IMG/VR virus record: IMGVR_UViG_3300036799_000072 | Location: 1-20,131 of that record | Strand: one strand, 5' to 3' | Source: a virus | DNA: 20,131 nt | Shown: positions 1,021 through 19,824 of the stretch, piece by piece | How positions within the stretch are numbered: position 1 is the first letter of the stretch | Layout of the letters: every line of letters begins with the position of its first letter | Position numbers and translations under genes: made by a program | The notes under the pieces: model-generated | What the model was told of the DNA's origin: nothing | Database searches by the model: none | Seen by the model: only the letters and a program-made list of their open reading frames with translations

Positions 1021-2457
1021 TCAGGCCGCCGTCAGTTTCGGATAGTTCAATTTGCCCCCCCAGCCGCCTAGCTGGTTCGTTATGTACTGCGAGGACAGCG
1101 CCCAGTACCTGCAACTGTCCGAACCGTGACTGGCCCAATCGTGCTCAGGCGTTATCGAAAATTCGCCTAGCTTTTCGTTATATTTGCGCCGGTAGTTCGT
1201 CAGGCATTCAATCCCGCGCTGGCATTTTTCCGCGTCAAACCAGACCGTCGGCAGGAAAACGCGACAGGCGTGTATCCCTTCGTCCAGCGGCAGATTCGGG
1301 GCTATTTCGAAATTGATGCCCAGATTCTGCGCGACCTCTAAACGGCTTTTCCCGGTGCCCAGTTCGCGGACCGCGATATCGTGCGGGGCGAAATGCTGGC
1401 CGTACACATAGCGCTTATCCGCGAGGACGCGCGCGTAATGCTGTAGCCCTTCGCCTGCCGCCTCGTAGTAGTCAATCGCGCGCCGTTCGCCGCCGATATG
1501 CTGGGCGAACCAGATAGCGGTACTGTCACCCATGCCTAGGTCCCATATCGTATGGACAGGCAGCGCCGGGTCATACGGAACCCGCGTTATACGGCCCTCA
1601 AAATAGGCCGTTTCCATTTCCTTTTTATAAATCGCGCCCGGAATCTCGATCACGTCCCAGCGTCCCGACAGCAGCGCGCGCCGCGTCATTTCGTCCAGCA
1701 GTAATAGATTCGCCTCGTAGTCCGCGCCCAGATACGGGTTATCGGCCAGCCGCGCGGGTATGAACCGGCGCGACATAACGCGCTGGCTGCCATCGGCTAA
1801 TGTAACGATAAGGCGCTGTAGTGTTGCACTACCATCGTCTTTGATACCCCAGCGTTCGCGTACCCATTTATGCCCGCGCCCGCCCGGGTTGCAGTTCGCG
1901 CGCATCAGACAGCGCAGATTCGGGTTCGACGTGCGCAGCCGTGAAAACAGGTACGTGTAGCAGACGTCAGTCGCCCATTGGGTCAGTTCCTCAAACGCGA
2001 TGAACTGGAATTCGAACGACTGCCAGCGGAACCGGTCGTCCTCTGTCTGCATGTAGGACGTCGCGATTTCCGCGCCGCTGGGGAACGTCCAAATATGGTC
2101 TGTCTTGTTAAAATCCGCGCCCGGATAAGCCAGCGGATAGATTTCGTGCATGCGCGCCTCTAGCTCGCGCAGTTCGGGAAAGGTCGGGCGAAAGATAATC
2201 GCCCGATAGTCGGGCTGTAGAACCGCCTGCTGCCAGAGGCCCATCGCGTCGATAACCAGCGCGTCGGTTTTGCCCCCGCCTGCGGCCCCCCCGTATAGGA
2301 CCTCGTGTTCATTCGCCGCGAGGTATTCCGCCTGTTTGGGCGTCGGGGTCCATGTCGCGCCCTGCGGGTCCTCGTCGTCGTCCTCTAGCGCGACGTCGTC
2401 CCAGCCTTCCGGGTCCCGGCTAAGGCTTAGACGGGGGTTCGACAGCCTGCGCGGCAT
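1021..2457 (-). CDS. terL: Terminase large subunit (packaging ATPase/nuclease)
   Basis: 478 residues, normal for TerL. This motor pumps DNA through the portal and cuts concatemers. The Walker A motif GGAAGGGKT is at residues 56-64, the Walker B segment QFIAFEE at about 151-157, and a C-terminal RNase H-like nuclease domain begins near HTIWDLGMGDSTAIWF with Asp306 as the likely first metal ligand; the next acidic residue is near 329 (AIDYYEA). The N-terminal TPKQAEYLAANEHEVLYGG is the typical adenine-recognition lead-in. The start at 2457 overlaps the small subunit gene by 38 bp, as is common. A perfect copy of the phage-wide 15-bp palindrome lies inside the gene at 1818-1832 (codons around residues 209-213). 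Confidence 0.93.
   Translation of the reverse strand: MPRRLSNPRLSLSRDPEGWDDVALEDDDEDPQGATWTPTPKQAEYLAANEHEVLYGGAAGGGKTDALVIDAMGLWQQAVLQPDYRAIIFRPTFPELRELEARMHEIYPLAYPGADFNKTDHIWTFPSGAEIATSYMQTEDDRFRWQSFEFQFIAFEELTQWATDVCYTYLFSRLRTSNPNLRCLMRANCNPGGRGHKWVRERWGIKDDGSATLQRLIVTLADGSQRVMSRRFIPARLADNPYLGADYEANLLLLDEMTRRALLSGRWDVIEIPGAIYKKEMETAYFEGRITRVPYDPALPVHTIWDLGMGDSTAIWFAQHIGGERRAIDYYEAAGEGLQHYARVLADKRYVYGQHFAPHDIAVRELGTGKSRLEVAQNLGINFEIAPNLPLDEGIHACRVFLPTVWFDAEKCQRGIECLTNYRRKYNEKLGEFSITPEHDWASHGSDSCRYWALSSQYITNQLGGWGGKLNYPKLTAA
1797..1832. promoter_or_regulatory. Paired 15-bp palindromic sites inside terL
   Basis: GTAGTGTTGCACTAC at 1818-1832 is a perfect match to the repeated phage operator. 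A degraded partner, CTAATGTAACGATAA, sits exactly 21 bp away at 1797-1811 and matches the consensus at 10 of 15 positions. Read leftward, the 36-bp block matches the paired sites at 11898-11933 at 29 of 36 positions, including part of the spacer, so it looks like the same module rather than a chance palindrome. It lies well inside an essential gene, so it may be a transcription-blocking site or a partition site rather than a normal promoter operator. Confidence 0.6.
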
Positions 2458-2980
2458 AGTCCTGTTCTACCGCTGTGTCCTCGCGTTCCATCGTTTCCAT
2501 GGTCGTTTCCATGGTCGCTTTCATCGGGTATTCAATCGGGCGCGCGTTCAATGCGTCCGCGCCCGGGGGCGTCGTGTCGACCAGTTTCGATTCCGGTTTC
2601 CATTTCGACGGGCAGCGATTCACTAACCACCATTTGCAGGCCGCGACGTCGGGCGGGAAATACTCGCGTTTGATTGCCTCGCGCCCGTCTACCTGAATTT
2701 TCATTTCATGTTCGAACCCGACGCAGCGCTTGTAGAGCGCCTCGACGACCTCGTAGTCCGCGATCACGCGCCCCGCGTCTATCGCGGCGTCGAACTGCGG
2801 GTAAAGGTGCCGCCATTTGTTGAACGTATGGCGGTCCGCGCCCAGATTGCGGGCGATTTCCGCATGCGACAGACCCAGCAGCGCGAGCTTTCGCGCAAAC
2901 ACGACAAAACGCGGGTCGAACGATCCCGGGTCCTCGCGTTCATAGATAATTTTTTCGGTCAGGTTTCGACTAAGCGTCAT
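2420..2980 (-). CDS. terS: Terminase small subunit
   Basis: 186 residues. It recognises the packaging site and loads the large subunit. The N-terminal half carries a helix-turn-helix (LALLGLSHAEIARNLGADRHTFNKW). This is followed by the segment seen in many small terminases: a helix with DYEVVEALYKRCVGFE and then PPDVAACKWWLVNRCPSKW. The C-terminus is acidic and Met/Glu/Thr-rich, as expected for a tail contacting TerL. The ATG at 2980 is preferred over longer readings because it overlaps the upstream stop codon as ATGA. The 3' end overlaps terL by 38 bp. Confidence 0.88.
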   Translation of the reverse strand: MTLSRNLTEKIIYEREDPGSFDPRFVVFARKLALLGLSHAEIARNLGADRHTFNKWRHLYPQFDAAIDAGRVIADYEVVEALYKRCVGFEHEMKIQVDGREAIKREYFPPDVAACKWWLVNRCPSKWKPESKLVDTTPPGADALNARPIEYPMKATMETTMETMEREDTAVEQDYAAQAVEPPSKP

Positions 2981-3477
2981 CGCGGGATACCGCCAAACTT
3001 TTGTCCTGCCAGCATTTGCAGCAGGTTTTGCTGGCCGGTCGCCGCAGTCAATCCTGCGGGCTGCGCCATCATAGAGGTCTGCTGCGGAACGAAATTGATA
3101 GGCTGGCCGCTGCCCGGACGCGCGCCTGCCGGGGCATGCGGGGGGGTCTGCTGGTCTAGCCCGCCTGTCTTGCCTGCCGCGCCCGCCAGCGCCCCCCAGT
3201 TCGGGCCCCCGCCCGCGTCTTTCATCGCTTGGGTCCAATCCTGCGCGTCCTGTACGCCCTGAATGCCGCCTAACGCCGCTGGCTGCATCTGGACGCCCTG
3301 ATAGTTCGCCTGCTGGCCCCCGGGCATCGTGAACTGAGACGCGGCCCCGCCATCGGACGTAAAAGGCGACGCGACCGCGCTCGCGTCCGCGCCGCTGCCG
3401 AAACGGTCTTTCAGGCTGGACCAGAGGCTATCCATACCGGCGCCGCTGCCGTCTGCGCCGCTCGCATTGCTACCCAT
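2977..3477 (-). CDS. Gly/Ala/Gln-rich phage protein of unknown function
   Basis: 166 residues, rich in Gly, Ala, Gln, Met and Pro, with no membrane segment and no motif I recognise. Only a short N-terminal stretch (MDSLWSSLKDRFGSG) looks able to form an amphipathic helix; the rest appears disordered. Its stop codon overlaps the small terminase start as ATGA, so the two are translationally coupled. A GGGGG ribosome-binding site precedes the ATG. The position between an Ig-like-domain protein and the terminase suggests a virion or assembly role, such as a scaffold, decoration or head-associated protein, but that is inference. Confidence 0.75.
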   Translation of the reverse strand: MGSNASGADGSGAGMDSLWSSLKDRFGSGADASAVASPFTSDGGAASQFTMPGGQQANYQGVQMQPAALGGIQGVQDAQDWTQAMKDAGGGPNWGALAGAAGKTGGLDQQTPPHAPAGARPGSGQPINFVPQQTSMMAQPAGLTAATGQQNLLQMLAGQKFGGIPR

Positions 3478-3486
3478 GGCGACCCC

Positions 3487-4275
3487 CTAGGTAAAGGTCA
3501 CGCTAGCCGTGCCGGATACCGTGCCGCTGGTCGCGGTCAGGACGACGCTTTCCGGGACCGTGTCGACGACGTCGACCGCGAGCGTCCCATCTGCGGCTGT
3601 CGTGCCGCTGGCAGGCGTCGGGCTTGCCGTGCCCATATCGCAGGTCATCGACAGAGGCGCCGCCATCGGGGCGCTGTTCTGGTCCAGCACGGTAAAGCGA
3701 ACCGTGTTAGCCGCTGCGCCATCGGCCAGCGCGCTATCGGCTACGACTGCGCCACTAATGCTGGTCACGCGCGAGGCGCCGTCGATTGCCGCGTAGGCTT
3801 TGCGAATCAGCCCGACCGCGATTTCCTGCGCGATGCCCGACGCGTAGACCTCTATTTCGGTCGCGTCGCCGCTGGTAATCGCTTGTTCGATTACGGCAGA
3901 CATGGCCGTCAGGTATTCCGCATTGATGGTTTGCGGATACATGCGCAGGTCCGCGACCGGGTCCGCGCTGGTCGTCGCCGGATTACCGGGAATGCCCGGG
4001 GCGGTTCGTTCTGGCAGGGTCGGGGGAACGCGTCCGCTGCGCCATGCGAGGCGGATAGCTTCGTTGCGCAGGTCTGCGGGACTGATTGGATAGATAGGCG
4101 CGCTGCCGGGTTCGCCGTTCGCCGCTGCGCGCGCTGCCTCTGCGTCCAGATAGGGGCTCGCCGCTGGCGGGGGCATGTCGCCCGGGGCGCCGGTCGGACC
4201 GACTGCGGTCGTCGCGGGGGCGGTCGGGGCGGGTCCCGGTGCCGGGGGGATTTCCTGCGTTTGCGGGTCGCTCAT
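3487..4275 (-). CDS. Ig-like (Big_1-type) domain protein, probable virion component
   Basis: 262 residues in three parts. Residues 1-60 are Pro/Ala-rich and probably disordered. About 60-160 is helical (SPADLRNEAIRLAWRSGRVPP, then AEYLTAMSAVIEQAITSGDATEIEVYASGIAQEIAVGLIRKAY). About 175-262 is an all-beta segment (VRFTVLDQNSAPMA ... GTTAADGTLAVDVVDTVPESVVLTATSG ... ASVTFT) with the rhythm of bacterial Ig-like Big_1/invasin domains. Such domains decorate phage capsids and tails and can bind carbohydrate weakly. It is the first gene after the candidate late promoter and terminator. Its GGAGGG ribosome-binding site lies directly after the terminator T-tract. Function is inferred from domain type and position only. 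Confidence 0.75.
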   Translation of the reverse strand: MSDPQTQEIPPAPGPAPTAPATTAVGPTGAPGDMPPPAASPYLDAEAARAAANGEPGSAPIYPISPADLRNEAIRLAWRSGRVPPTLPERTAPGIPGNPATTSADPVADLRMYPQTINAEYLTAMSAVIEQAITSGDATEIEVYASGIAQEIAVGLIRKAYAAIDGASRVTSISGAVVADSALADGAAANTVRFTVLDQNSAPMAAPLSMTCDMGTASPTPASGTTAADGTLAVDVVDTVPESVVLTATSGTVSGTASVTFT

Positions 4276-4290
4276 TTCGGGCCGCCCTCC

Positions 4291-4322
4291 AAAAAAAAAC
4301 GCCCGCTATTGCGTAGCGGGCG
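4291..4322 (-). terminator. Intrinsic terminator in the late leader (tR'-like)
   Basis: A 9-bp stem CGCCCGCTA/TAGCGGGCG (4300-4308 and 4314-4322) with loop TTGCG is followed, reading leftward, by nine T. It lies between the candidate late promoter and the first late gene, and the next gene's ribosome-binding site begins straight after the T-tract. As placed it should stop leftward transcription before the late genes unless polymerase is made terminator-resistant, which is what Q proteins do. Confidence 0.9.
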
Positions 4323-4395
4323 ATTGTGAAAAACGAGGGGTTGATTCTGCATCGAACCGAAAGGCCCATTGATGGAACCTATCGAATCAGGCCGG

Positions 4396-4425
4396 ATTAT
4401 AGGCGGTTTTGTTGACCGTCCCCAA
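4396..4425 (-). promoter_or_regulatory. Candidate late promoter (leftward, pR'-like)
   Basis: Reading leftward there is a perfect -10 hexamer, TATAAT (4401-4396), with TTGGGG (4425-4420) 18 bp upstream as a weak -35. A start near 4389 would give a leader of about 65 nt before the terminator hairpin. A GGTCAA copy lies in the promoter spacer and two more, as an inverted repeat, lie just upstream. The arrangement Q gene, promoter, terminator, late genes is the lambdoid late switch. Confidence 0.6.
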
Positions 4426-4454
4426 AGACTTTATTTTGACCATTTCGGTCAAAA
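4412..4454. repeat. TTGACC/GGTCAA repeats around the late promoter
   Basis: TTTTGACC (4434-4441) and GGTCAAAA (4447-4454) form a perfect 8-bp inverted repeat with a 5-bp spacer. A further TTGACC is at 4412-4417, inside the spacer of the candidate late promoter. The hairpin overlaps the stop codon of the Q-like gene. It could be a weak terminator for that gene (no T-tract follows) or, together with the third copy, a binding element for the Q-like protein. Confidence 0.5.
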
Positions 4455-4877
4455 CGCATGCTGGTAAAGGCCCAGCGGTTCGTTTTCGGGACGTTGCAGG
4501 CGCGCGGCCCGGTTGATTTCGTCCAGCCGGATAGCGGCCCGATACGCGCGTTTGCGGAACGTGCGCAGCCGCTTATAGATTGCGTCGTCGGATAGCGCGC
4601 AGGCGTCCGATAACTCTTTGACGCTGCGGGCTGGAAACAGGTAGTAAATCAGGAAGGTTCGCCGCGTATCGTCGTCGGGCTGGGCATTGATTGCCGTGTT
4701 GAACAGCGACATTTCAGAGGACAGCCAAACGACCGGCGCGTTACGCAGTTTGCCGGGTTGCAGGCGGGCCAGAATGCCCTTTTGCATCGGGGGCGCTATC
4801 AGACCGTGGGCGCGATGCCATGCGGCCCAGCGCAGACAGAATAGGTGTAACTGCTGGTCGCTCAAGGTTTCGCGCAT
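4449..4877 (-). CDS. Q-like late antiterminator
   Basis: 142 residues. The layout resembles the phage 82-type Q family: an N-terminal WAAWHRAHG segment, a middle LPGxLRN-like stretch (LQPGKLRNAPVVW), and a C-terminal sigma-region-4-like helix-turn-helix (DDDTRRTFLIYYLFPARSVKELSDACALSDDAIYKRLRTFRKRAYRAAI). Q proteins bind near the late promoter, join paused RNA polymerase and let it pass terminators. The ATG at 4877 is chosen because GGAGG lies 8 nt upstream; the longer ATG at 4892 has no ribosome-binding site. It ends the parA operon and is followed at once by a TATAAT promoter and an intrinsic terminator, which strongly supports the assignment. A simple HTH regulator is the alternative. Confidence 0.68.
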   Translation of the reverse strand: MRETLSDQQLHLFCLRWAAWHRAHGLIAPPMQKGILARLQPGKLRNAPVVWLSSEMSLFNTAINAQPDDDTRRTFLIYYLFPARSVKELSDACALSDDAIYKRLRTFRKRAYRAAIRLDEINRAARLQRPENEPLGLYQHAF

Positions 4878-4920
4878 GGGTCGTTCCTCCATACGAGAAT
4901 GTAGCGCGCAGGCGACCTGT

Positions 4921-5133
4921 TTACAATCGTTCCGGGCTTTCCTGTTCGATCCATTCCCATTGGTAATGGACCCGCGCGAGGCGTTCGCGGGCCGCCTGCG
5001 GGTCCATTCCGACCAGCCAGCGGATTATGGGCGCGGCCCGCGTACAGCGCCATGGCTGGCCCGGGCCCTCGCGCACATAGACCGCGCCCGCGTCAAAATG
5101 CGGGGCCATCACGCGCAGGATTTTCTGTTCCAT
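4921..5133 (-). CDS. Small conserved phage protein (APHF...AAPIIRW type)
   Basis: 70 residues. The pattern APHFDAGAVY ... CTRAAPIIRWLVGMDPQAARERLARVHYQWEWI matches a small uncharacterised family I have seen in many temperate phages, often in the stretch before the late antiterminator. No membrane segment or catalytic motif is visible. The start at 5133 overlaps the upstream gene by 41 bp and the stop lies about 40 bp before the Q-like gene start, so it belongs to the same leftward operon. Function unknown. Confidence 0.7.
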   Translation of the reverse strand: MEQKILRVMAPHFDAGAVYVREGPGQPWRCTRAAPIIRWLVGMDPQAARERLARVHYQWEWIEQESPERL

Positions 5134-5338
5134 GGTTCATCAGTCGCTCGCGGTCCGTGCGTAGCTGGGCCGCGATGGTTTCGAGTAGTTCGGGCAGAAC
5201 CGCGAGCGTCGCCGCGTCTGCCTGTACGGCAAAGCCCGGGCCCAGTTTGCCGTTCGTCAAAATCAATAGCACGCCGGTACTTTCGGCCTGTTCCCGGCAG
5301 TAGGTCGCGAGGTCGTCGTATTTGCCCGGGCCGTTCAT
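5093..5338 (-). CDS. Hypothetical phage protein
   Basis: 81 residues from the ATG at 5338, whose ATGA overlaps the stop of the upstream gene; the longer in-frame start at 5389 would run deep into that gene. The sequence is mixed: a helical start (KYDDLATYCREQAESTG), a central strand (VLLILTNGKLGPGFAVQAD) and a leucine-rich helix (LAVLPELLETIAAQLRTDRERL). No family recognised. It sits in the tightly packed leftward operon between parA and the Q-like gene. Confidence 0.7.
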   Translation of the reverse strand: MNGPGKYDDLATYCREQAESTGVLLILTNGKLGPGFAVQADAATLAVLPELLETIAAQLRTDRERLMNHGTENPARDGPAF

Positions 5339-5715
5339 GGTTCCGCCCGCGCTGCGCGGTCCAGCAGGTCTGCTAGGTCTAGCCCGCATTCGTCGCGGAT
5401 TATGTCGCCTATCTGCGCTATGCGCGTCGCTTCAAATTCCACGCGTTCGCGATAGTAGGCGGGCGCGTCGTCGAACTGCTGGACGAACGCGCGTAATTCG
5501 ATCAGGCCGCCCAGCAGTAGCAGGTTATCGCCATTGCGGGCGATTTCGTCCTCTATCGCGTTCGCGCGAACGCGCGCGGCGTCCACACATTCCTGATAGC
5601 TATGTTGTCGCCCGCGCGCCATGCCCGCGTCGCGCATAATCGCCAGCAGTAGCATAAGGGCGGAACTGTCCACGACTGCGACCCGCAGGCCGTTGTCGTC
5701 GTCGGGTTTGTTCAT
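5335..5715 (-). CDS. Hypothetical helical phage protein
   Basis: 126 residues, mostly predicted helix (VDSSALMLLLAIMRDAG, ECVDAARVRANAIEDEIARNGDNLLLLGGLIELRAFVQQF), with an acidic C-terminal helix ending in DLADLLDRAARAEP. No motif or family recognised. A GAGGAC ribosome-binding site precedes the ATG at 5715. The stop overlaps the next gene as ATGA, so translation is probably coupled. Part of the parA-to-Q operon. Confidence 0.75.
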   Translation of the reverse strand: MNKPDDDNGLRVAVVDSSALMLLLAIMRDAGMARGRQHSYQECVDAARVRANAIEDEIARNGDNLLLLGGLIELRAFVQQFDDAPAYYRERVEFEATRIAQIGDIIRDECGLDLADLLDRAARAEP

Positions 5716-5724
5716 GTCGTGTCC

Positions 5725-6099
5725 TCACCAATTGACGTATTCTCGCGCCGGGTCGCCGTCCGGGCGACGTCTGCCGGTCGTCGGGTCGCGGTGCCATCCC
5801 CCGGGTTCGTCCTCGCCGTCGCGGGTCGTCCATTCGGCCAGCGCCCGCAGCGCGTCCGCGTAACTCTCATAGCACCATCGCCGCTCATAGCCCCAGCGAT
5901 CAATGCCCGCCAGTATCGCGTAGGTGAACCTCAGTTTGGTAATGCAGGCGTCCTGCCCGTCCGGGAATATGACGTAGTCCGTATAGCCGTTCGCCGCGCA
6001 TATGTCGGGCCCAGTGTCAGCGGTCGCGGTCGCTGCGACTTCCTGCATGATAGCGACCGCTGCGCGTAGCCGCGTTAGCAGCAGTTCGTCGTCGCTCAT
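5725..6099 (-). CDS. Hypothetical phage protein
   Basis: 124 residues starting at MSDDELLLTRLRAAVAIMQE. The ATG at 6099 is chosen because it forms an ATGA overlap with the membrane protein gene upstream; the longer open frame to 6315 has shadow-like Arg/Pro/Gly composition. The N-terminal third is helical. The middle has aromatic residues (NGYTDYVIFPDGQDACITKLRFTYAILAGIDRWGYERRWCYE) and the C-terminus is Asp/Arg/Gly-rich. No family recognised. Confidence 0.7.
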   Translation of the reverse strand: MSDDELLLTRLRAAVAIMQEVAATATADTGPDICAANGYTDYVIFPDGQDACITKLRFTYAILAGIDRWGYERRWCYESYADALRALAEWTTRDGEDEPGGWHRDPTTGRRRPDGDPAREYVNW

Positions 6100-6566: not shown

Positions 6567-6580
6567 GGGTCTGCCCTCGT

Positions 6581-6982
6581 TTATTGGGCGCGCGCGCGTT
6601 TTCTGGCTGCCGCCCGGGTCGCCGCGCGTCGCGCGTCGCGTTTCGCTTGTGCCGCCGCGCGGTTTTTTTCGACCTGTTCGCGCGCTGCGACCTCTGCCGC
6701 TTCCTGTTCGCGCAAATGTTCAAAATGCGCCGCGATAATGCGCTGTAAATACATCGACCGGCTATAACCGTATTCTGCCGCGCGTCGGTCCAGTTCGGGA
6801 ATCATGTCCGGCTGTAAATTGACCATCACGCGCTGGCGCGGCTGTTCCAGCCGGGGCGCGCGCCCGACGCCTGCGCTGCTGCCGTTACGTTCGCTGCGCG
6901 CGTCGTGCGCTGCCGCTTCAATTGCTGCCTGTTCCGCGTCCGGGTCAAGTTGCGGGACCGCTGCGGGTTTGGTGATTGCCAT
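6581..6982 (-). CDS. Ribbon-helix-helix DNA-binding protein, ParB-type centromere binder
   Basis: 133 residues. A clear RHH domain lies at about 51-90: the strand QRVMVNLQPDMIPELDRRAAEYG supplies the ribbon and first helix, and YSRSMYLQRIIAAHFEHL the second helix. The N-terminal 50 residues are acidic and probably flexible. The C-terminal 40 residues are an Ala/Arg/Lys-rich, coiled-coil-like basic tail. The gene starts 9 bp after the parA stop. In type Ib partition systems an RHH protein binds repeated centromere sites, stimulates ParA and represses the operon promoter. The palindrome cluster at 7660-7738 just upstream of parA is its likely target. Part of the N-terminal tail may stimulate the ParA ATPase, as in ParG. 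It could also be a plain transcriptional regulator. Confidence 0.75.
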   Translation of the reverse strand: MAITKPAAVPQLDPDAEQAAIEAAAHDARSERNGSSAGVGRAPRLEQPRQRVMVNLQPDMIPELDRRAAEYGYSRSMYLQRIIAAHFEHLREQEAAEVAAREQVEKNRAAAQAKRDARRAATRAAARKRARAQ

Positions 6983-6991
6983 TTTCTTACC

Positions 6992-7642
6992 TTAGATCAA
7001 TGCTTCAATAAAACCGTTTATCTCATTCTGGGCGGTTCTGTCCAGTGGCTTGTATTCCTGCAACGTCAAACCCAGCGCGGCAGCGCGGGAAATGGACTTG
7101 CGCTTGACAATTTGCGTTGTCAATACCTCGAACTGTTTCGATTCGTTAAGCATGTCGCGCGCGTCGCGATTATCTGGGCTGTCGTAATCCGGGTCCGCGC
7201 CATTGATAACCGCATAACACGGCAACGAACGGTGACGGATTTTATTCATTTCATGAATCAGTTTTATAAATTGATCCAGCGTCCAGAGGTCGGGCGCGGC
7301 AGGCCCGAACGGCGCGACCAGTAACTGGCTAACTAGCAGCGCCTGCCGCAGCGCCTGCGTATCGCGCCCGCCCGCGTCGATCACGACGTAATCGCAGTGT
7401 TTCGCGCGGTTCTGCACGACGCTTTGCAGGCCCTTGGCAGTCGGGACCAGTTCATTAGCGACTGGCTCGCGGCCTGCCGTCTGAACCCGGTTGATTAGCT
7501 GCTGGGTCGTCGTCGCCTGTTCGTCCGCGTCCAGAATCAGCGTTTTGTAGCCGCGTTCCGCGAGCCCCAGCCCCAGATGCGTCGCCAGCGTCGATTTTCC
7601 GACGCCGCCCTTGGTTTGGCCTATCGTAATGATGCGACCCAT
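6992..7642 (-). CDS. parA: ParA-family partition ATPase (type Ib)
   Basis: 216 residues, the short form without an N-terminal DNA-binding domain. The deviant Walker A box KGGVGKST is at residues 11-18 with the signature lysine at 11. The second box reads DYVVIDAGGRD, a variant seen in many plasmid ParA proteins, and LLVAPFGPAAPDLWTLDQF follows. ParA moves plasmid copies apart by ATP-dependent binding to the nucleoid. The ATG at 7642 has a GGGGG ribosome-binding site; a longer frame to 7699 would run through operators and is rejected. It is the first gene of the leftward operon leading to the Q-like gene, so partition and late control share one transcript. Confidence 0.88.
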   Translation of the reverse strand: MGRIITIGQTKGGVGKSTLATHLGLGLAERGYKTLILDADEQATTTQQLINRVQTAGREPVANELVPTAKGLQSVVQNRAKHCDYVVIDAGGRDTQALRQALLVSQLLVAPFGPAAPDLWTLDQFIKLIHEMNKIRHRSLPCYAVINGADPDYDSPDNRDARDMLNESKQFEVLTTQIVKRKSISRAAALGLTLQEYKPLDRTAQNEINGFIEALI

Positions 7643-7672
7643 GTATCGACCCCCTTTCGTTGGTGTAACACT

Positions 7673-7678
7673 ACTATA
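7673..7678 (-). promoter_or_regulatory. Candidate -10 of the leftward parA promoter
   Basis: TATAGT, 5 of 6 to the consensus, lies between the palindromic sites at 7660 and 7681. No good -35 is visible 16-18 bp upstream. A start near 7666 would give a leader of about 25 nt. Binding at either flanking palindrome would block it. Confidence 0.45.
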
Positions 7679-7708
7679 GCATAGCGTTACGTTACGCATT
7701 TTCTAGTG

Positions 7709-7736
7709 TTGCACTAGCGTGTCTTAGTGTTACACT
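7709..7736 (+). promoter_or_regulatory. Candidate rightward promoter embedded in two palindromes
   Basis: TTGCAC (7709-7714, inside the 7703 palindrome) and TACACT (7731-7736, inside the 7724 palindrome) are spaced by 16 bp and could serve as -35 and -10. The same arrangement recurs at 19795-19822. Both hexamers are weak by consensus (3 of 6 and 4 of 6), so an activator or partial use is possible. Confidence 0.42.
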
Positions 7737-7772
7737 ACGCATGTTCTAACAAGGGTTACAGAGGGGTTGCAG

Positions 7773-7982: not shown

Positions 7983-7989
7983 GGGGGAA

Positions 7990-11897: not shown

Positions 11898-11933
11898 GTA
11901 GTGCAACGTTAAAGCGCTGTAGTGTTGCGCTAT
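11898..11933. promoter_or_regulatory. Paired palindromic sites upstream of the disordered-protein gene
   Basis: GTAGTGCAACGTTAA (11898-11912) and GTAGTGTTGCGCTAT (11919-11933) are imperfect copies of the 15-bp operator, 21 bp apart. They lie between the DUF2303 gene stop (11944) and the ATG at 11882, leaving only 15 bp between the inner site and the start codon. Confidence 0.75.
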
Positions 11934-13635: not shown

Positions 13636-13638
13636 CTG

Positions 13639-14088: not shown

Positions 14089-14091
14089 CGG

Positions 14092-14522: not shown

Positions 14523-14534
14523 GTATCCCCCTAC

Positions 14535-14570
14535 GTAGTGCAACACTAGGGCGCGCTACCGTTACGCTTA
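14535..14570. promoter_or_regulatory. Paired palindromic sites upstream of the 14522 gene
   Basis: GTAGTGCAACACTAG (14535-14549) is a near-perfect operator copy. A degraded copy, CTACCGTTACGCTTA, sits 21 bp away at 14556-14570 and resembles the degraded site at 7681. The pair overlaps the last codons and stop of the gene ending at 14546, so an internal leftward promoter with tight spacing is likely. Confidence 0.68.
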
Positions 14571-14869
14571 GGCGCGAACGCGTCCGCCAGCCGCTGCTGG
14601 GTCGCCGCGAGCGTTCCCGGTTCCAGCGTAGGCGGGGCTTTGCCTGAATCGCGAAACGCCTGTAGCTCGTTCTGGGCATGCTGTAACGCCGCCCGCAGGC
14701 CCAGAATCTGGCTATGCAGTGCCGATACCTCGCGTCGCTGGGCGTCTATGCGTGCCTCGTAGCGTTCGCGTAGGGCGCGCGTTTGCAGTGCCGCGCGGCG
14801 TTCCAGTTCGTCCAGAATCGCGACGACCGAAATCGGCAGTTCCGCAAAACGGCGCGCAGGGTTAGGCAT
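14546..14869 (-). CDS. Coiled-coil hypothetical protein
   Basis: 107 residues from MPNPARRFAELPISVVAILD. A run of GGGGGGG upstream of this ATG favours it over the ATG at 14881. The middle 60 residues form a long charged helix (DELERRAALQTRALRERYEA, EVSALHSQILGLRAALQHAQ) typical of a coiled coil. The C-terminus (about 80-107) is Pro/Ala-rich. Operator sequence overlaps its stop. No family recognised. Confidence 0.74.
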   Translation of the reverse strand: MPNPARRFAELPISVVAILDELERRAALQTRALRERYEARIDAQRREVSALHSQILGLRAALQHAQNELQAFRDSGKAPPTLEPGTLAATQQRLADAFAPKRNGSAP

Positions 14870-15059
14870 GGGCCCCCCCATTGGTCAATCCGCAGGGGCG
14901 CAGGCCCGGGTTTTCCGGTTCTGCCGAGATCAGCGCAGCGCGCGCAATGCGCCCGACGTCGACCAGTCGCTGCGTATCCGCGAGGTCGCGAATCAGGCGC
15001 AGCGCCTCGCGCAGGCGTTCGTTATCCCTTTGCAGACGTTCCAATGCTGCCGCGTTCAT
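14862..15059 (-). CDS. Small leucine-zipper-like protein
   Basis: 65 residues. The first 40 (AALERLQRDNERLREALRLI, RDLADTQRLVDVGRIARAAL) have leucines at heptad spacing, so a dimeric coiled coil is likely; the last 25 are Pro/Gly-rich. Its ATG overlaps the stop of the upstream gene as ATGA, and its 3' end overlaps the next gene start by 8 bp. Function unknown. Confidence 0.7.
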   Translation of the reverse strand: MNAAALERLQRDNERLREALRLIRDLADTQRLVDVGRIARAALISAEPENPGLRPCGLTNGGAHA

Positions 15060-15334
15060 TCGTTCGGTCCTCCAATCAAACGGGGCTCGCGCGACGCTTC
15101 TAGGGTCGCCAGCCGCCTATCCGCTTCGTCGTAAATGTCCGCTGCCGCGTCCAGCAGGTCCCAGCCCGGGCCGTCGATCATCTGGACCAGCAGGCCCAGC
15201 GCGTCCAGCGCGCCCGCGACGTAGAACGCCTCTGCGACGTTCGCGCCGGTCGGGTCCAGCAGCAGGCTACAGCCAGCGCCGGTTAAGCCTATGGCGTATC
15301 GGTTCCGCCAGCGTGTTTGCAAACTCTCGTTCAT
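15056..15334 (-). CDS. Hypothetical protein
   Basis: 92 residues from the ATG at 15334 (MNESLQTRWRNRYAIGLTGA); a GTG at 15343 with GGAGG 9 nt upstream is an equally good start. The central part is hydrophobic and helical (NVAEAFYVAGALDALGLLVQMIDG) and the end is acidic then basic (DLLDAAADIYDEADRRLATL). The first 68 bp overlap the preceding gene in another frame, longer than usual here. No family recognised. Confidence 0.65.
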   Translation of the reverse strand: MNESLQTRWRNRYAIGLTGAGCSLLLDPTGANVAEAFYVAGALDALGLLVQMIDGPGWDLLDAAADIYDEADRRLATLEASREPRLIGGPNE

Positions 15335-15653
15335 AGCCCTCACTCTCCATTTCCTCCCGAACGAACGCTAGCTGCTGGTCGATATAGGCGCTGGCGCGGC
15401 GCATATGAACCCGCAGGTCCGCGTCGGGTCGGTCTAGTATATGTCGGACATGAACGCGCGCGCCCTCCAAAAAAGCCCGATGCAGTAGCAGGTAGAGGCC
15501 GCGCGACAGGTAGCGGTCGTCCGCGTACAGGTCCGCGAAAAACGCTAGTTCCTCTAACGTTTTCCCGGTCGTGGGCGGACGTCGCCAGACGGTTTTTTTG
15601 ACGACGCGGCGCGACACGTAGAGGGGGATAGGGTTAGTGCGATGCCGTCCCAT
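15267..15653 (-). CDS. Hypothetical basic protein
   Basis: 128 residues. The N-terminus is basic (MGRHRTNPIPLYVSRRVVKK). A helical middle follows (KTLEELAFFADLYADDRYLS, RGLYLLLHRAFLEGARVHVR), then a charged C-terminal half (ADLRVHMRRASAYIDQQLAFVREEMESEG). No family recognised. It overlaps neighbours at both ends, by 20 bp upstream and by about 68 bp downstream. Confidence 0.7.
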   Translation of the reverse strand: MGRHRTNPIPLYVSRRVVKKTVWRRPPTTGKTLEELAFFADLYADDRYLSRGLYLLLHRAFLEGARVHVRHILDRPDADLRVHMRRASAYIDQQLAFVREEMESEGYEREFANTLAEPIRHRLNRRWL

Positions 15654-15936
15654 GGTCCGGCTGGCCTGTGTCTTGCAGGTCGGGAAACATGCGTTCCCGG
15701 GCGACGACCGCGAGGTAATTCGTAGGCCAGTCGTCGGGGAATTCGTCGATACCGGGACGCAGGCCGCGTTCCTGCATCGTCATTTCCAGCAGTTGCCACG
15801 CGTCGCGTAGCAGCGCGCCTGCCGCTACTTCGATCATCGCCCACGCCAGCGTTTCGGGCGCGACGCCCATGGTCTGGGCGACCTCGACGACGTGAAACTG
15901 GACCAGCGTCCCGCCCTGTATCGTCCTCGTGTCCAT
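15634..15936 (-). CDS. Hypothetical protein
   Basis: 100 residues from MDTRTIQGGTLVQFHVVEVA. The ATG at 15936 has GGGAGGG about 7 nt upstream; a TTG one codon earlier is less likely. A helix-rich centre (QTMGVAPETLAWAMIEVAAGALLRDAWQLLEM) is followed by a Pro/Asp-rich end. The opening resembles a small helix-turn-helix-like lead, but nothing firm. First gene after a 220-bp gap in the leftward operon. Confidence 0.72.
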   Translation of the reverse strand: MDTRTIQGGTLVQFHVVEVAQTMGVAPETLAWAMIEVAAGALLRDAWQLLEMTMQERGLRPGIDEFPDDWPTNYLAVVARERMFPDLQDTGQPDHGTASH

Positions 15937-16156
15937 CAAAAGACCCTCCCTACGTGTTTAAAAGACCGACCGCCTACGGTTTTGGCCCCGCCATGCCGTT
16001 TCCTGGCCCTGTCTGGGGCGGACATAGCCTGAATTTTCGCCAGCCCGCCAGACGGGCTTAAAACGCGTTTAAACGAGTATCGCAGCTGTAGAACATTACA
16101 AAATCCTTTCTTGATAGCCAAATGCTATTAGTTAACTGGCTACCTTACTGTTTCTG
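15937..16156. other. 220-bp gap in the leftward operon
   Basis: No convincing gene. It holds a hairpin AGCCCG/CGGGCT (16042-16047 and 16053-16058), flanked by A/T-rich GTTTAAAC-like and TTAAAACG motifs, and a GTTAAC near 16132. A 61-codon frame begins at a TTG (16121) and ends as TGATG at the next start, but it lacks a ribosome-binding site and looks non-coding. A weak promoter here is possible; I see no clear -10/-35 pair. Confidence 0.4.
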
Positions 16157-16421: not shown

Positions 16422-17705
16422 TTATTCCTTCCGGTTTCCATAGCGCAGTTTCCCGCGCAGTTCATCGATAGCTGCCAGTCGTGCCGGGTCGTCGGGTTCG
16501 CCTGCCGCTAGCCGTCGTCGTCGCTCGCGGTCCGCGCGGTCGAACGCGTCCATGCGGGCCAGCGTGTCGTTTGGTATCGACGCTGCATGTCCGCCTACGG
16601 GGGTATGGCCGCGCGGTTTCGCCTCGCGCAGTTTGTCGCGGACGCCGGGGGCGACCGTGTCGAACCAGCTAAACGTTCGTATCGGCTGGGCGTTGCTGTC
16701 CGCTTTCTGGGCGATAGCTGCCGCGACGTCGGGCGTAATGCCGTGTCGCTGGCAGAGGCTGGAAACGGCCCCGGGGGCTACCGGAACGGCGTGTCGTTCT
16801 ACGACCTCGTCCAGTATTGCGACCGCGCGCTGTAGGTCGGTCTGCGCGGTTTCGTCCCCATGATAGTCTGGGACTATTACATGCGTCGAACGGTCGATAG
16901 CGTTAGCACTATCGTTCGGTTCTGACGTTGGTTCTATTTCGTCGTCGGTCCCGGGCCCGCGAACGTCCGCTGGCATTGACTCGCGCGCGCGGCTGTTTGG
17001 TTTTATATGGTTTTTAACCTTATTAGTACTTACCGCTACTGGCGGTTCTACGTGCCGGTAGTAGCGGGTATGGCCCTCATTTTCGCCCGAGTTATCCACA
17101 GGTGAAGGGGTCATAACCGCTACTAGCGGGTATGGCCCCATAATAGGCTGCGCTAAATGACCATTGCGAACTCCATAGTCATAGGCTAATTCGCTAAGAT
17201 AGTCCGCCTCTAGCCAATAGCTATACATGGACGGATGCCTGCCCGGGGGGGGCGGGCCGCGTTTGACTATCTGTTTCGCCATCAGCGCGTCGCGGATTTT
17301 TTCCAGCAGGTCGGTACTTACGCCGACGTCGCGCGCGAAATCCTCGTTTTTTTTGCACCAGCGCCCGACGCCCTGCCCTAAGCGCCAGCCGAACATGGAC
17401 GCGATAATTGCCTGCGTCTTAGACAGGCCGGTCGCCTCTGCGATAGCTGCCGCGTCGTGCAGATTGACCATGCGCATCCCGGTATCGCGCCATTTCTGGA
17501 ATGGTTCCGCGTTCGCGGGGTCGTCCAGCGCGTGCGGGGCGGGCGGGGCGGGCGGGTCGTCCGGGTCCAGCGTCCGGGCTATCTGCGCGGCGCGTTCCGC
17601 GAGTATCGCCAACATGTCGTCGCGGTCGCGGTCGGTCCATTGGTCCGCCAGCGCGACCAGCGCCGGGTTATGGGCGGTCTGGGCGACCTGCTGGGGCGTA
17701 TTCAT
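16422..17705 (-). CDS. Lambda O-like replication initiator
   Basis: 427 residues. The N-terminal part has helices and a Pro-rich linker (DDPPAPPAPHAL, about 49-60). A winged-helix-like domain follows at about 105-170: GWRLGQGVGRWCKKNEDFAR, DVGVSTDLLEKIRDALMAKQ, IVKRGPPPPGRHPSMYSYWL. Residues about 185-260 are a hydrophilic linker, and the C-terminal third is helical and charged. Phage O-type initiators have this layout and carry their origin inside the gene at the linker. Here a perfect DnaA box and iterated repeats lie exactly in that part. The ATG at 17705 overlaps the upstream stop (ATGA). It is one of the first genes of the leftward early operon. A plasmid-type RepA is the alternative name. 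Confidence 0.7.
   Translation of the reverse strand: MNTPQQVAQTAHNPALVALADQWTDRDRDDMLAILAERAAQIARTLDPDDPPAPPAPHALDDPANAEPFQKWRDTGMRMVNLHDAAAIAEATGLSKTQAIIASMFGWRLGQGVGRWCKKNEDFARDVGVSTDLLEKIRDALMAKQIVKRGPPPPGRHPSMYSYWLEADYLSELAYDYGVRNGHLAQPIMGPYPLVAVMTPSPVDNSGENEGHTRYYRHVEPPVAVSTNKVKNHIKPNSRARESMPADVRGPGTDDEIEPTSEPNDSANAIDRSTHVIVPDYHGDETAQTDLQRAVAILDEVVERHAVPVAPGAVSSLCQRHGITPDVAAAIAQKADSNAQPIRTFSWFDTVAPGVRDKLREAKPRGHTPVGGHAASIPNDTLARMDAFDRADRERRRRLAAGEPDDPARLAAIDELRGKLRYGNRKE
16863..16877. repeat. 15-bp palindrome ATAGTCTGGGACTAT inside rep
   Basis: Six-base arms ATAGTC/GACTAT with a 3-base centre, the same geometry as the phage operator and matching its consensus at 10 of 15 positions. A second imperfect palindrome, ATAGCGTTAGCACTAT, is at 16897-16912. 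They lie within codons and are not 21 bp apart, so they may be chance. Confidence 0.3.
17001..17138. other. Probable replication origin inside the rep gene
   Basis: Within 140 bp there is an AT-rich run (17001-17031, with TTTTATATGG and TTATTAGTAC) and three related 13-mers: CCGCTACTGGCGG (17033-17045), CCGGTAGTAGCGG (17055-17067) and CCGCTACTAGCGG (17117-17129, a perfect palindrome). TAGCGGGTATGGCCC occurs as a 15-bp direct repeat at 17062-17076 and 17124-17138, and a perfect DnaA box TTATCCACA is at 17092-17100. Iterons plus AT-rich DNA plus DnaA box inside an initiator gene is the lambda O/ori arrangement. It encodes residues about 190-235 of the initiator, a linker-like stretch. Confidence 0.68.
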
Positions 17706-17887
17706 GCGAGCCCCCGCGCAGCAAACCAGAACGCACAAGCGACCGCGACCGACAATTCGTTCGGAATAGGCGGGAACGGGTATAGGCGGTCGAACTGGTC
17801 GCGCTGATCGTCGGTTAGCTGGGCGACGAACGCGGCCCGCGTAAGCGAAAACCGACGTAACGCTTGGATAGATTCGGGCGAAATCAT
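17702..17887 (-). CDS. Small protein upstream of rep
   Basis: 61 residues starting MISPESIQALRRFSLTRAAF. The ATG at 17887 has a GGGGGG-type ribosome-binding site; the longer frame to 17983 starts without one. It has a short helix (VAQLTDDQRDQFDRLYPF), PPIPNELS and a hydrophobic end (VAVACAFWFAARGLA). Its stop overlaps the rep start as ATGA, so it controls or is coupled to rep translation. It could be a small regulator of replication, but no family is recognised. Confidence 0.7.
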   Translation of the reverse strand: MISPESIQALRRFSLTRAAFVAQLTDDQRDQFDRLYPFPPIPNELSVAVACAFWFAARGLA

Positions 17888-18046
17888 TCCGGCCCCCCTA
17901 TTTTGTAGGCAGGTTCGGGGGGGGATTTTAGGCTGCACCGGGGCGCAGAACGCCGCCTGTAACGGCTTCGTGTTGTTATTCACGGCTACGTGTCCCTATT
18001 GTGCGGACGCGCGCCTACAGGGTCGCCAGCTAGCCGGAAACCGCAG

Positions 18047-18061
18047 GGGGTTTAAAACCCC
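18047..18061. repeat. Palindrome GGGGTTTAAAACCCC
   Basis: Seven-base arms around a central A, in the non-coding leader of the rep operon. It may form a hairpin in either transcript or bind a protein. No T-tract follows. Confidence 0.45.
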
Positions 18062-18082
18062 TTGCATCGCTAGCAGAGTTAC

Positions 18083-18189
18083 TGGCAAAATCAAGACTGG
18101 CCTGCAAGCCCCGACTGATTTTCTGTGGCGCACATCCTCTGTTATCGGTCGCAAAAGCCCCCTGCTATCAACAGGGGGTTTTTGTTTTT
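18083..18189 (+). ncRNA. Candidate short rightward RNA antisense to the rep leader
   Basis: A strong rightward terminator at 18158-18189 has no rightward gene before it. Weak promoter hexamers (TTGCAT at 18062-18067 and CAAAAT at 18086-18091, 18-bp spacer) could start an RNA of about 80-90 nt near 18098. Such an RNA would be complementary to the untranslated leader of the leftward rep operon, as counter-transcribed RNAs of plasmids are. The boundaries are uncertain and no expression evidence exists. Confidence 0.35.
18158..18189 (+). terminator. Intrinsic terminator, rightward
   Basis: Stem CCCCCTG (18158-18164) pairs with CAGGGGG (18172-18178), loop CTATCAA, followed by TTTTTGTTTTT. On the opposite strand the hairpin is followed only by CTTTTG, so leftward termination would be weak. 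Confidence 0.9.
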
Positions 18190-18258
18190 CTGGGGTCGGA
18201 AAACGGGCCCAGAGCCCCGCCCGGTCTACGTTTGTGACGTTTTTGGGCGCGAAAAGGA

Positions 18259-18287
18259 AGTCTGCACGTTTACCGCGTAAACGTCAA
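18259..18287 (-). promoter_or_regulatory. Candidate leftward promoter covered by a 19-bp palindrome
   Basis: TTGACG (18287-18282, 5 of 6 to -35) and CAGACT (18264-18259, 3 of 6 to -10) are 17 bp apart reading leftward. The perfect palindrome ACGTTTACCGCGTAAACGT (18266-18284) fills the spacer and overlaps the -35, a classic repressor position. It would drive the rep operon with a leader of about 365 nt. The palindrome is unlike the repeated GTAGTG operator, so a second regulator may act here. Confidence 0.45.
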
Positions 18288-18368
18288 TATTTCCTCATTT
18301 CCTGCATTTCCCGCGCCATATCGGCAAACGTTGCGCGGTCCTACGCAATGTTTTTGCGCGTTTCCGGG

Positions 18369-18404
18369 CTAGTGCAACGTTATGTTCCCGTAGTGCAACA
18401 TTAA
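18369..18404. promoter_or_regulatory. Paired operator sites upstream of the rep operon
   Basis: CTAGTGCAACGTTAT (18369-18383) and GTAGTGCAACATTAA (18390-18404) are 21 bp apart. Each has one good half-site and one degraded one. Reading leftward they give TTGCAC and TGCACT hexamers at promoter-like spacing. They lie about 480 bp from the first leftward gene. Confidence 0.72.
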
Positions 18405-18422
18405 GGCATCATTAAGGCATCA
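18401..18422. repeat. Tandem 11-bp repeat TTAAGGCATCA x2
   Basis: Two exact copies, 18401-18411 and 18412-18422, are followed by GATGCTTAA (18429-18437), a near-inverted copy. The 11-bp period is one helical turn. The first copy overlaps the end of the operator at 18390. Possible binding site for a replication or regulatory protein. Confidence 0.55.
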
Positions 18423-18636
18423 TTACCGGATGCTTAAACCGGTCGTTTTGTCGCTGGTCTGTCCACCTTTCGTTATACCTTCTCCCTCGTCTTAAACCCG
18501 TTTACCCTTCATTGGTGCGGCGCAGCGTCCTGGCCCTTTATTCGGCTGCGGACCGCTGGCGAGTTTTTGTCTATCCTATATAAGATAGCTGTCTGACCGC
18601 CTGACCGTCTGGTCAGGATTTATTAGTTAGTTCTCC

Positions 18637-18672
18637 CTAGTGCAACATTAGGTTGCGCTAGTGTTGCACTAC
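18637..18672. promoter_or_regulatory. Paired operator sites at the rightward promoter
   Basis: CTAGTGCAACATTAG (18637-18651) and CTAGTGTTGCACTAC (18658-18672) are 21 bp apart. The second lies exactly between the -35 and -10 of the promoter for the gene at 18719. Confidence 0.8.
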
Positions 18673-18681
18673 GGTTAGAAT
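18653..18681 (+). promoter_or_regulatory. Rightward promoter with operator in its spacer
   Basis: TTGCGC (18653-18658) and TAGAAT (18676-18681, 5 of 6 to TATAAT) are 17 bp apart. The spacer is filled by the palindrome at 18658-18672, so binding should exclude RNA polymerase. A start near 18688 gives a leader of about 30 nt to the ATG at 18719. Confidence 0.62.
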
Positions 18682-18718
18682 TCTCTTTGTCGCAACTTAC
18701 TTAACAGGCAGAAAAAAA

Positions 18719-18853
18719 ATGAAACACAAAGACGAGGTCGTATCACGCTGGATTGGACAGGACGGTAACGAATGGCGCGAACTGCGCTGCTGGGTCGGAA
18801 ACGGTTATCGGTATTTCACACAGCGCCATGCCGGAAACGACATCTGGATTTAA
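18719..18853 (+). CDS. Small basic protein, first of the right operon
   Basis: 44 residues, aromatic and charged, with beta-like rhythm (RWIGQDGNEWRELRCWVGNG, YRYFTQRHAGNDIWI). The ATG follows the run GAAAAAAAA, and AGGCAG further up is a weak ribosome-binding site. It is too short to name, but it sits directly behind the best operator-covered promoter in the window, so it is likely expressed early and tightly regulated. Confidence 0.65.
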   Translation: MKHKDEVVSRWIGQDGNEWRELRCWVGNGYRYFTQRHAGNDIWI

Positions 18854-19228: not shown

Positions 19229-19600
19229 ATGATCGTTGGCTACTATTATCTGCATACGGACGGGTCGGTTATCTGGAAACGGATAGCCCCCGGACTGATA
19301 GAGGACTTCGAGAATTCGGACCTCGTTCGCTGTTACTGGCCCTGCGACCCTAGCGATAGGCGCGGGGCTTATCGCATTCTGATAGAGGCGACCGCCAAAG
19401 GCGCGGACCCGGTCAAACTGGCGAACCTTGCCGCGCAATGGCAATGCACGCACGACGACGCGATAGAGTACGCGCGCCGCGAGGGTATCGACCTCGTCAC
19501 GGTCGCGGGCCAGTTCGTCGCCAGCCTGCCCGGGTTCGTCGGCAAAGGCGATACGCCGCTGCTGGCGCTGGTCGCCCTGTACCGGGCCCAATATAGCTAG
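19229..19600 (+). CDS. Conserved early phage protein (MIVGYYYLHTDG type)
   Basis: 123 residues. The opening MIVGYYYLHTDGSVIWKRIA, then VRCYWPCDPSDRRGAYRILIEATAKGADP and LANLAAQWQCTHDDAIEYA, matches a small family I know from phages of proteobacteria, usually near recombination genes; function unknown. It begins immediately after the preceding stop codon, so it is coupled to it. The helix-rich second half may be a dimerisation or protein-binding part. Confidence 0.78.
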   Translation: MIVGYYYLHTDGSVIWKRIAPGLIEDFENSDLVRCYWPCDPSDRRGAYRILIEATAKGADPVKLANLAAQWQCTHDDAIEYARREGIDLVTVAGQFVASLPGFVGKGDTPLLALVALYRAQYS

Positions 19601-19788
19601 ACCCCTTGTAAACGCCGCCAGCAGGTCCTACAGTGCCTGTAACCCTTGGTTTCCAGCCCGTCCACACTCCCGCAGGATAGGTTTGCGATTCGACAGCCGG
19701 GGCCAGACGCCGCGCGCGGGGTTCCCGAAACGCGATGCAGTACCAGCCCCCCGCGCGCGAGTGTCGCCAAACCCCCTATTTACCGTCT
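19601..19788. other. Gap before the exonuclease promoter
   Basis: 188 bp with no supported gene and no T-tract terminator. GC-rich, with a CCGCGCGCGGGG-like patch near 19710-19722 and a similar CCCCCCGCGCGCGAG at 19747-19761. Confidence 0.4.
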
Positions 19789-19824
19789 GTAGTGTTGCAC
19801 TACGGCATAGTAGTGTTACACTAC
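19789..19824. promoter_or_regulatory. Two perfect operators with embedded promoter upstream of the exonuclease
   Basis: GTAGTGTTGCACTAC (19789-19803) and GTAGTGTTACACTAC (19810-19824) are both perfect in their 6-bp arms and 21 bp apart. TTGCAC (19795-19800) and TACACT (19817-19822) inside them have a 16-bp spacer and could be -35 and -10. This is the best-conserved pair in the window and defines the consensus. It lies 28 bp before the ATG at 19853. Confidence 0.85.

Follow-up and report, generated by a model that had tools for sequence, protein, structure and literature searches.

The stretch of DNA analysed here, referred to as the window, is a 20,131-bp virus record that represents a genome fragment (positions 1 to 20,131 of IMG/VR record IMGVR_UViG_3300036799_000072). 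It carries a small parA gene on the minus strand (6992..7642) and, directly downstream on the same strand, a gene for a 133-amino acid protein (6581..6982) that is probably of the ribbon-helix-helix (RHH) type and is the candidate binder of all the sites described below. The parA product is 216 amino acids long, has a Walker motif (KGGVGKST, residues 11-18) and lacks an N-terminal DNA-binding domain; it matches the ParA-like family phrog_164 (1.4e-38, aligned only to profile positions 223-469 of 500) as well as Pfam CbiA and AAA_31. A 15-bp palindrome (GTAGTGYWRCACTAC and variants) occurs 16 times in the window, in eight pairs distributed over seven loci. All 16 were found at the coordinates given by an earlier, sequence-only reading of this DNA, which had attributed them to a single regulator acting throughout the phage. 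In a nucleotide search of phage and plasmid collections, run in near mode only, the window matched nothing.

A search of the window for GTAGTGTTRCACTAC with up to three mismatches gave 19 strand-wise matches, against a mean of 0.28 and a maximum of 4 in 100 dinucleotide shuffles. A symmetrised matrix gave its 15 highest scores in the window, all of at least 16.6 bits, to members of the set, the next place having 10.5. The one site of the 16 not among these, 14556, scored 10.49 bits (rank 17, or 20 in a leave-one-out test); it is a weak site, recognised mainly through its spacing. Start to start, the two palindromes are 21 bp apart in each of the eight pairs, and the step from 7681 to 7703 is the only one of 22 bp, precisely as claimed earlier. 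This spacing is not random: with up to three mismatches to the core TAGTGN3CACTA, 7 pairs were counted at 21 bp, where 0.070 would be expected and none of 200 Markov shuffles gave more than 1. An unbiased scan of the window, covering 1024 boxes with spacers of 0-9 and distances of 14-33, returned TAGTG-N3-CACTA at 21 bp as its best result. The grading of the sites drawn in the sequence-only reading held in part. Both GTAGTG arms, presented as the mark of strong copies, occur together in only 3 of the 16 sites, while the GTAACG-TA core ascribed to weak partners is exact in three of these five (1797, 7681, 14556) and inexact in the remaining two. A looser form, GYWACG.T, fits all five weak partners and none of the other 11 sites. 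The ladder of affinities proposed in that reading might correspond to this gradation in sequence.

Pair 1 (1797..1832), composed of a weak site at 1797 (CTAATGTAACGATAA) and a strong one at 1818 (GTAGTGTTGCACTAC), lies inside the gene for the terminase large subunit (terL). Pairs 2 and 3 (7660/7681 and 7703/7724; 7660..7738) are found between parA and a divergent gene called from 7773 on the plus strand, and the block is presumed to be the operator of the parA-RHH unit. Pair 4 (11898/11919; 11898..11933) separates a DUF2303 gene from the gene at 11202-11882. Pair 5 (14535..14570), in which a strong site at 14535 is joined to the weakest site of all at 14556, is located 20 bp upstream of a minus-strand start called at 14514 and overlaps the 3' end of the gene at 14546-14881. 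Pairs 6 (18369/18390; 18369..18404) and 7 (18637/18658; 18637..18672) share a region of roughly 1 kb without called genes (17705 to 18719), pair 7 lying upstream of plus-strand genes 18719 and 18908. Pair 8 (19789/19810; 19789..19824), the strongest, is 28 bp upstream of a start called at 19853; the gene concerned is orthologous to the RecE-like gene of a more distant relative, G004 (see below).

The closest relative, G001 (IMGVR_UViG_3300046533_000812), is an 18,572-bp fragment that is syntenic with the window and encodes a ParA 76% identical to that of the window. Its 21-bp pairs are kept in matching places: two upstream of parA, one inside terL, one between the DUF2303 gene and its neighbour, and one (4308/4329) at the junction that matches 14535 of the window. 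Two more pairs (482 and 740) precede the orthologue of gene 16422-17705. In the unbiased scan, the top result for G001 was tied with an overlapping description of these same sites. The constant helical phasing noted in the sequence-only reading is therefore conserved. At half-site position 7, the window has T in 22 cases, C in 10 and G in none, whereas G001 has T in 11, G in 17 and C in none (C versus G, Fisher P 1e-7, the half-sites not being fully independent). The whole set has thus shifted at one base, as expected from one changing reader protein, which argues for a single trans-acting factor and so for the lone regulator postulated earlier. Between the window and G001, the RHH protein changes at residue 53 (M to A) and residue 57 (Q to S); aligned by eye, and in this single comparison, these residues correspond to Arc positions 9 and 13, described as contacting bases in PMC12645479.

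The terL pair is present in all five contigs of this clade (the window, G001, L008, L020 and L022) and absent from G003, G004 and L024. L008 and L022 have one further pair each, outside the part covered by the window. Codons within the terL pair are identical at 10 of 11 positions in the comparison with L020 (gene average 0.70) and at 5 of 8 in those with G001, L008 and L022 (gene average 0.72); hence, conservation at synonymous sites is not uniform.

Three features go beyond the sequence-only reading: the same arrangement built from another motif in relatives, the proximity of the sites to start codons, and a unit of four half-sites. The first was found in a second clade. G003 and G004 are about 41 kb long, have 127-bp terminal repeats and are apparently complete; G017 is a 39.7-kb contig. 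Their ParA proteins are 39-41% identical to that of the window, an RHH-like gene follows parA in G003 and G004, and a homologue of it is present in G017. The loose TAGTG core forms 0, 0 and 2 pairs at 21 bp in G003, G004 and G017, respectively (0.12-0.17 expected). The pattern TTGCAn3TGCTAGCAn3TGCTA, with up to three mismatches (a definition that drops weaker sites), gives 11, 20 and 16 matches, which merge into 10, 13 and 12 loci; the reversed-pattern control gives 0. Forward and reverse half-sites of these genomes are offset by 8 bases, the same offset as in TAGTG-N3-CACTA. The elements of both clades have one dyad geometry (5+3+5) and about four half-sites, a number that in the second clade follows from the definition of the pattern, some elements holding more. 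Successive dyads overlap at a distance of 11 bp in the second clade, as against 21 bp in the window. An unbiased dyad scan of G003 and G004 yielded only GC-rich top results, and is thus blind to this element. The sequence-only reading had called the set phage-wide; the window being a fragment, it is only the relatives that show a phage-wide spread.

Several junctions are occupied in both clades. Elements are found upstream of parA in all five genomes (the window, G001, G003, G004 and G017) and upstream of the 18908 orthologue in the window, G003, G004 and G017. The 19229/19853 junction is occupied in the window, G004 and G017, and by a degenerate cluster in G003. The DUF2303 junction is occupied in the window, G001 and G004, the same gene end is used in G003, and no site exceeds the threshold in G017. 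RecE- and RecT-like genes adjoin sites in G004.

The TTGCA/TGCTA pattern matched 112 stretches, G003 and G004 among them. Ten further contigs were chosen from the matched stretches: ParA was found in one, G017, and not in the nine others, which have 1-5 matches each. In the three contigs without ParA that were inspected, L215, L224 and L239, arrays of TAGCA with an 11-bp pitch are found inside genes that resemble replication initiators by eye. The likeness of these arrays to the second-clade element is probably convergent, the arrays being iterons of an origin, and these contigs were for this reason set aside as evidence. Such arrays might lead one to regard the palindromes themselves as replication iterons or packaging signals. 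The sites are, however, dispersed over the genome instead of being clustered at one origin, and they lie upstream of many unrelated genes, which makes this explanation extremely improbable.

Placement relative to genes is similar in the two clades. Site centres fall outside called genes at 5/7 loci of the window, 5/6 of G001, 8/10 of G003, 11/13 of G004 and 10/12 of G017, the coding share of these sequences being 87-93%. A called start lies no more than 60 bp downstream of the site edge at 5/7, 4/6, 9/10, 11/13 and 6/12 loci, respectively, that is at 35 of 48 in total, such zones making up 10-14% of the genomes; the intergenic and upstream counts overlap and are not independent of each other. 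This placement, along with the positions kept at several orthologous junctions despite the change of motif, might indicate that the sites serve the RHH protein as transcriptional operators and nothing else, the protein being a prophage silencer of the CI or stoperator type; parA would then be incidental or act elsewhere, and the sites would have no centromere role. The gene content of G004 could be taken the same way: among 52 of its 57 called genes scanned against PHROGs (all except terL, terS, parA, the DUF2303 gene and one more), none was named as a known lysogeny repressor, although one gene matches HTH_Tnp_1 (E 2.5e-5) in a Pfam scan of 43, and many are without a family. Yet the RHH gene is directly behind parA in the window, G001, G003 and G004, and the terL pair, not near any start, is nonetheless kept in 5/5 clade contigs. 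Furthermore, about four half-sites per element equals the threshold for ParA activation by the omega protein of plasmid pSM19035, for which PMC9499535 gives at least four contiguous repeats as the number needed to activate the ParA ATPase fully. A role as operators alone thus appears unlikely. The opposite possibility, that the sites are only a dispersed partition centromere whose location before genes merely reflects non-coding DNA, draws on the linkage to ParA and on the several SopB sites of phage N15 (IR1-4; PMC7205306). Close-upstream placement, and the use of the same junctions across a change of motif, are more specific than a centromere needs, and we judge this to be quite improbable.

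By gene content, parA and the gene behind it make up a type Ib-like (ParA plus RHH) partition cassette: the ParA is short and has no N-terminal DNA-binding domain, an array of sites is present at the par operon, and the gene next to parA is RHH-like, as judged from profile and fold matches with weak E values. The sequence-only reading had singled out the RHH protein as the one to test for binding, and it still is the best candidate reader, its weak assignment scores notwithstanding. A joint profile of this protein and seven homologues matches the RHH proteins MazE6 and CopG (E 0.0017 and 0.0028). At E up to 1, Pfam RHH_1 matches four of the eight family members (best 1.4e-5), the protein of the window not being among them. 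On whole records at 0.01, G005, G007, G008, G009 and G010 are positive; as RHH_1 is found in these records and not in the ParA-linked ones, Pfam support comes from short homologues only. The best structural matches of the predicted fold include CopG, ParD, AtaR, ParG and Arc, all with E of at least 0.25 (ParG 0.87). Used alone as a query, the RHH protein found no viral relative.

A link between pair and protein that does not depend on ParA also emerged from a scan of 2.9 million viral contigs for the 21-bp pair pattern only, which returned G001 and nine others. Homologues of the RHH protein are present in four of the nine, L014 being matched directly (E 2e-5) and L010, L012 and L016 through L014. 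Pfam RHH_1 matches occur in the records of these four and of L015, and in L011 the pair is placed between two divergent Arc-family genes; RHH or Arc-family genes are therefore present in 6/9 contigs found purely by the pair. Alternatively, the sites might be read by a different DNA-binding protein of the phage, either a repressor of the helix-turn-helix type or the protein encoded by 16422-17705. Only about half of a G004-type genome is represented in the window, no family is recognised for gene 16422, whose upstream region contains pairs, and G004 has its HTH_Tnp_1 match. Such a reader would have to be reconciled with the elements that all five genomes have at the promoter of parA-RHH and with the RHH or Arc-family genes in six of the nine pair contigs, and seems very improbable.

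The explanation that we favour, with a probability of about 0.6, is that one protein uses the pairs both as operators and as a dispersed centromere, the most likely such protein being the RHH product of the gene behind parA. Each 15-bp palindrome would be an Arc-like operator with two half-sites (TAGTG-N3-CACTA), each taken by one RHH dimer. Phage P22 Arc acts at one operator and one promoter and is not known to work with a ParA, and the TAGA-N5-TCTA spacing of its operator equals that of TAGT-N5-ACTA here; one palindrome should thus take two RHH dimers. Two RHH dimers of Arc are described as associating on a single 21-bp operator that contains TAGA boxes (PMC12645479). Two palindromes separated by two helical turns would put four dimers on one face of the DNA, and adjacent dimers may bind cooperatively, as the sequence-only reading had gathered from the spacing. 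By binding at the parA promoter, the RHH protein would repress the operon to which its gene belongs; elsewhere, at junctions that for the most part closely precede a start, it would shut down or tune the neighbouring genes. All the sites jointly would constitute a dispersed centromere moved by ParA, the prophage being kept as a low-copy plasmid. In this scheme, the four dimers on a pair would act together, repressing the adjacent gene and contributing one unit to the centromere. It seems conceivable that the sites are paired because ParA activation in pSM19035 takes no fewer than four RHH-ParB sites.

The tyrosine and serine recombinase families (PF00589, PF00239) had no match in the four records searched (G001, G003, G004 and G017). 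This, and the presence of ParA, fits an episomal prophage, and a phage-plasmid life style may be predicted from it. Since no repressor was named among the scanned G004 genes, there is room for the RHH protein in that role. One may speculate that in this family of tailed phages the RHH partition protein took over the role of prophage repressor, the silencing of lytic genes and the dispersed centromere, and with them lysogeny and segregation, then being a single system whose unit size is set by the number of dimers required for the firing of ParA; we put this forward tentatively, as a rather doubtful extension.

A number of observations weigh against the explanation favoured here. Pair 1 is buried within terL, a long way from the nearest start. 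At none of the pairs was a sigma-70-like promoter predicted, and palindromes 1818 and 19810 appear on a terminator-like list, among 27 sites where 22.8 are expected; the consensus promoter and terminator scans of the pairs are uninformative. G001 has a lone, unpaired site at 2854, and G002 (ParA 33% identical) has no TAGYGN3CRCTA site. Gene positions were obtained with a simple gene caller made for this analysis, so that the intergenic counts are approximate. The RHH assignment of the ParA-linked protein, derived from the joint profile and a low-pTM model, is weak: neither Pfam nor PHROGs has a family that the protein of the window, on its own, matches at 0.01, and at E up to 1 its matches are limited to ELF and HicB-like families, RHH_1 has no match at 0.01 in G001, G003, G004 and G017, and the predicted fold (mean pLDDT 78.6, pTM 0.41) forms no strand. 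L010, L012, L014 and L016 are apparently related to one another, and their pair is 1.6-3.7 kb from the RHH gene; L017, L018 and L019, three of the nine contigs, have no RHH_1 or Arc match. RHH_1 is also present in 9 of 14 control genomes and, being this common, renders the RHH association of the pair contigs suggestive only.

Other ParA loci were surveyed for comparable elements. De novo scanning of the ParA phages KS14, FLC5, PARCL1pr and Dfl-JY14 revealed no comparable AT-containing dyad; most of the leading hits were boxes rich in GC and present at many sites, as exemplified by GCCGC-N7 in PARCL1pr, whose 44 sites include 3 pairs at 21 bp. Recurrence elsewhere of palindromes that precede parA was seen with log P > 4 at 22/114 loci versus 20/342 control regions, and with log P > 8 at 5/114 versus 5/342; the window, G001, G003, G004 and G017 all rank in the top 12. 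General recurrence of such palindromes is thus weakly positive. Dispersed perfect 6+6 dyads were found at 3/79 viral and 1/69 bacterial ParA loci versus 0/125 control loci, in a stricter test that left out loci under 5 kb and that the G003 and G004 loci did not pass.

Some individual cases were noted in the course of this survey. In L164 (IMGVR_UViG_3300049255_000074, 1478 to 16051), a TGCAATTAATTGCA palindrome just upstream of parA recurs in about 10 dispersed clusters and the gene behind parA is RHH-like by eye; this is possibly an independent dispersed set of ParA-linked sites. L092 (IMGVR_UViG_2690315746_000001; 12980-20406 and other positions), also ParA-bearing, has CATATC-type palindromes (CATAT-N3-ATATG) at 8 dispersed places and TGTACG-N3-CGTACA at 8 clusters. 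Two more ParA-bearing contigs, L150 (IMGVR_UViG_2908155829_000001) and L300 (Succinivibrio MAG contig JAFUGP010000091.1), have dispersed TTCGG-N3-CCGAA at 8 places and dispersed TTCTGTCRTGACAGAA palindromes at 10, respectively. Among the contigs found by the pair, L019 (a 183-kb phage contig) has tandem TAGCG-type palindromes at 8486-8586, three good and two poorer, in steps of 22, 21, 21 and 22 bp, its record having no ParA, Arc-family or RHH_1 match; L018 has three TAGCGAATCGCTA-type sites at 4942-5031, near a gene that by eye resembles a ParB N-terminal domain. Elsewhere in the window, gene 9805-10554 matches phrog_887 (queuine tRNA-ribosyltransferase, E 1e-64), and in a minus-strand open reading frame (13285-13635) the stretch at about 13312-13503 encodes two identical copies, in tandem, of a 32-residue sequence (ETLLAVGDDGPLAVRQVIGRRTVELFKWTKAN).

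Among known systems, close parallels are provided by plasmids. As in the type Ib delta/omega system of pSM19035, a small ParA is found here with a probable RHH protein. Omega is bound at 7-10 non-palindromic heptads in a row, at a few plasmid loci, whereas the present units stand apart from one another, have about four half-sites each and are distributed over 6-13 loci in a tailed phage. The parS sites of the pSM19035 RHH-ParB are reported to lie at several places and to overlap promoters (PMC9499535, PMC5016525). Plasmid TP228 (parFGH) likewise combines a ParA homologue (ParF) with an RHH protein (ParG), the latter described as having a flexible N-terminal region and repressing its own operon (PMC7308502). 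Unlike the sites studied here, parH is presented in PMC5016525 as one continuous centromere beside the operon and not as a dispersed one.

The two phage systems invoked in the sequence-only reading fared differently. SopB, the type Ia ParB of N15, has sites that are dispersed over the phage genome. The conceptual likeness drawn with these sites is borne out, in that several sites are spread over a phage genome in both cases, those of the present set being putative centromere sites; the N15 prophage is described as being maintained at low copy number in plasmid form, its centromere consisting of the separate sites IR1-4 (PMC7205306). The N15 Sop palindromes are different ones and are not known to form phased pairs, and the partner here is a 133-amino acid RHH-like protein, not SopB. 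The stoperators of mycobacteriophage L5 resemble the set in that many sites, located in promoters and in short gaps between genes, are scattered along the genome of a phage; as described in PMC9283540, they are asymmetric 13-mers that act in an orientation-dependent manner, and their reader is a monomeric repressor of the helix-turn-helix type. The comparison is weak because the L5 sites are of that kind and those of the window are symmetric and paired.

The protein that would combine regulation and partition in the manner suggested here has a counterpart in KorB/IncC of plasmid RK2. KorB is a ParB of the helix-turn-helix class, not an RHH protein. It is cited in PMC11790492 as a ParB-type partition protein and global regulator with 12 sites and a binding hierarchy; unlike the present candidate, it is described there as a CTP-dependent DNA clamp, and it belongs to a plasmid and not to a phage. 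Among the matches listed in the open-licence literature, there was no description of RHH-type, genome-dispersed and phase-locked sites in a tailed phage. If the dual role is correct, one candidate protein would link repressor operators, centromeres and prophage maintenance, offering a sharp test of why the sites come in fours. The change of motif between the related clades, at junctions of which some are shared, also represents a natural experiment in the co-evolution of a regulator and its dispersed sites. Partition proteins that double as gene regulators are known from plasmids, omega and KorB being examples, and on our best reading the system described here would work like one of these, rather than as a system of the N15 or the L5 stoperator type.

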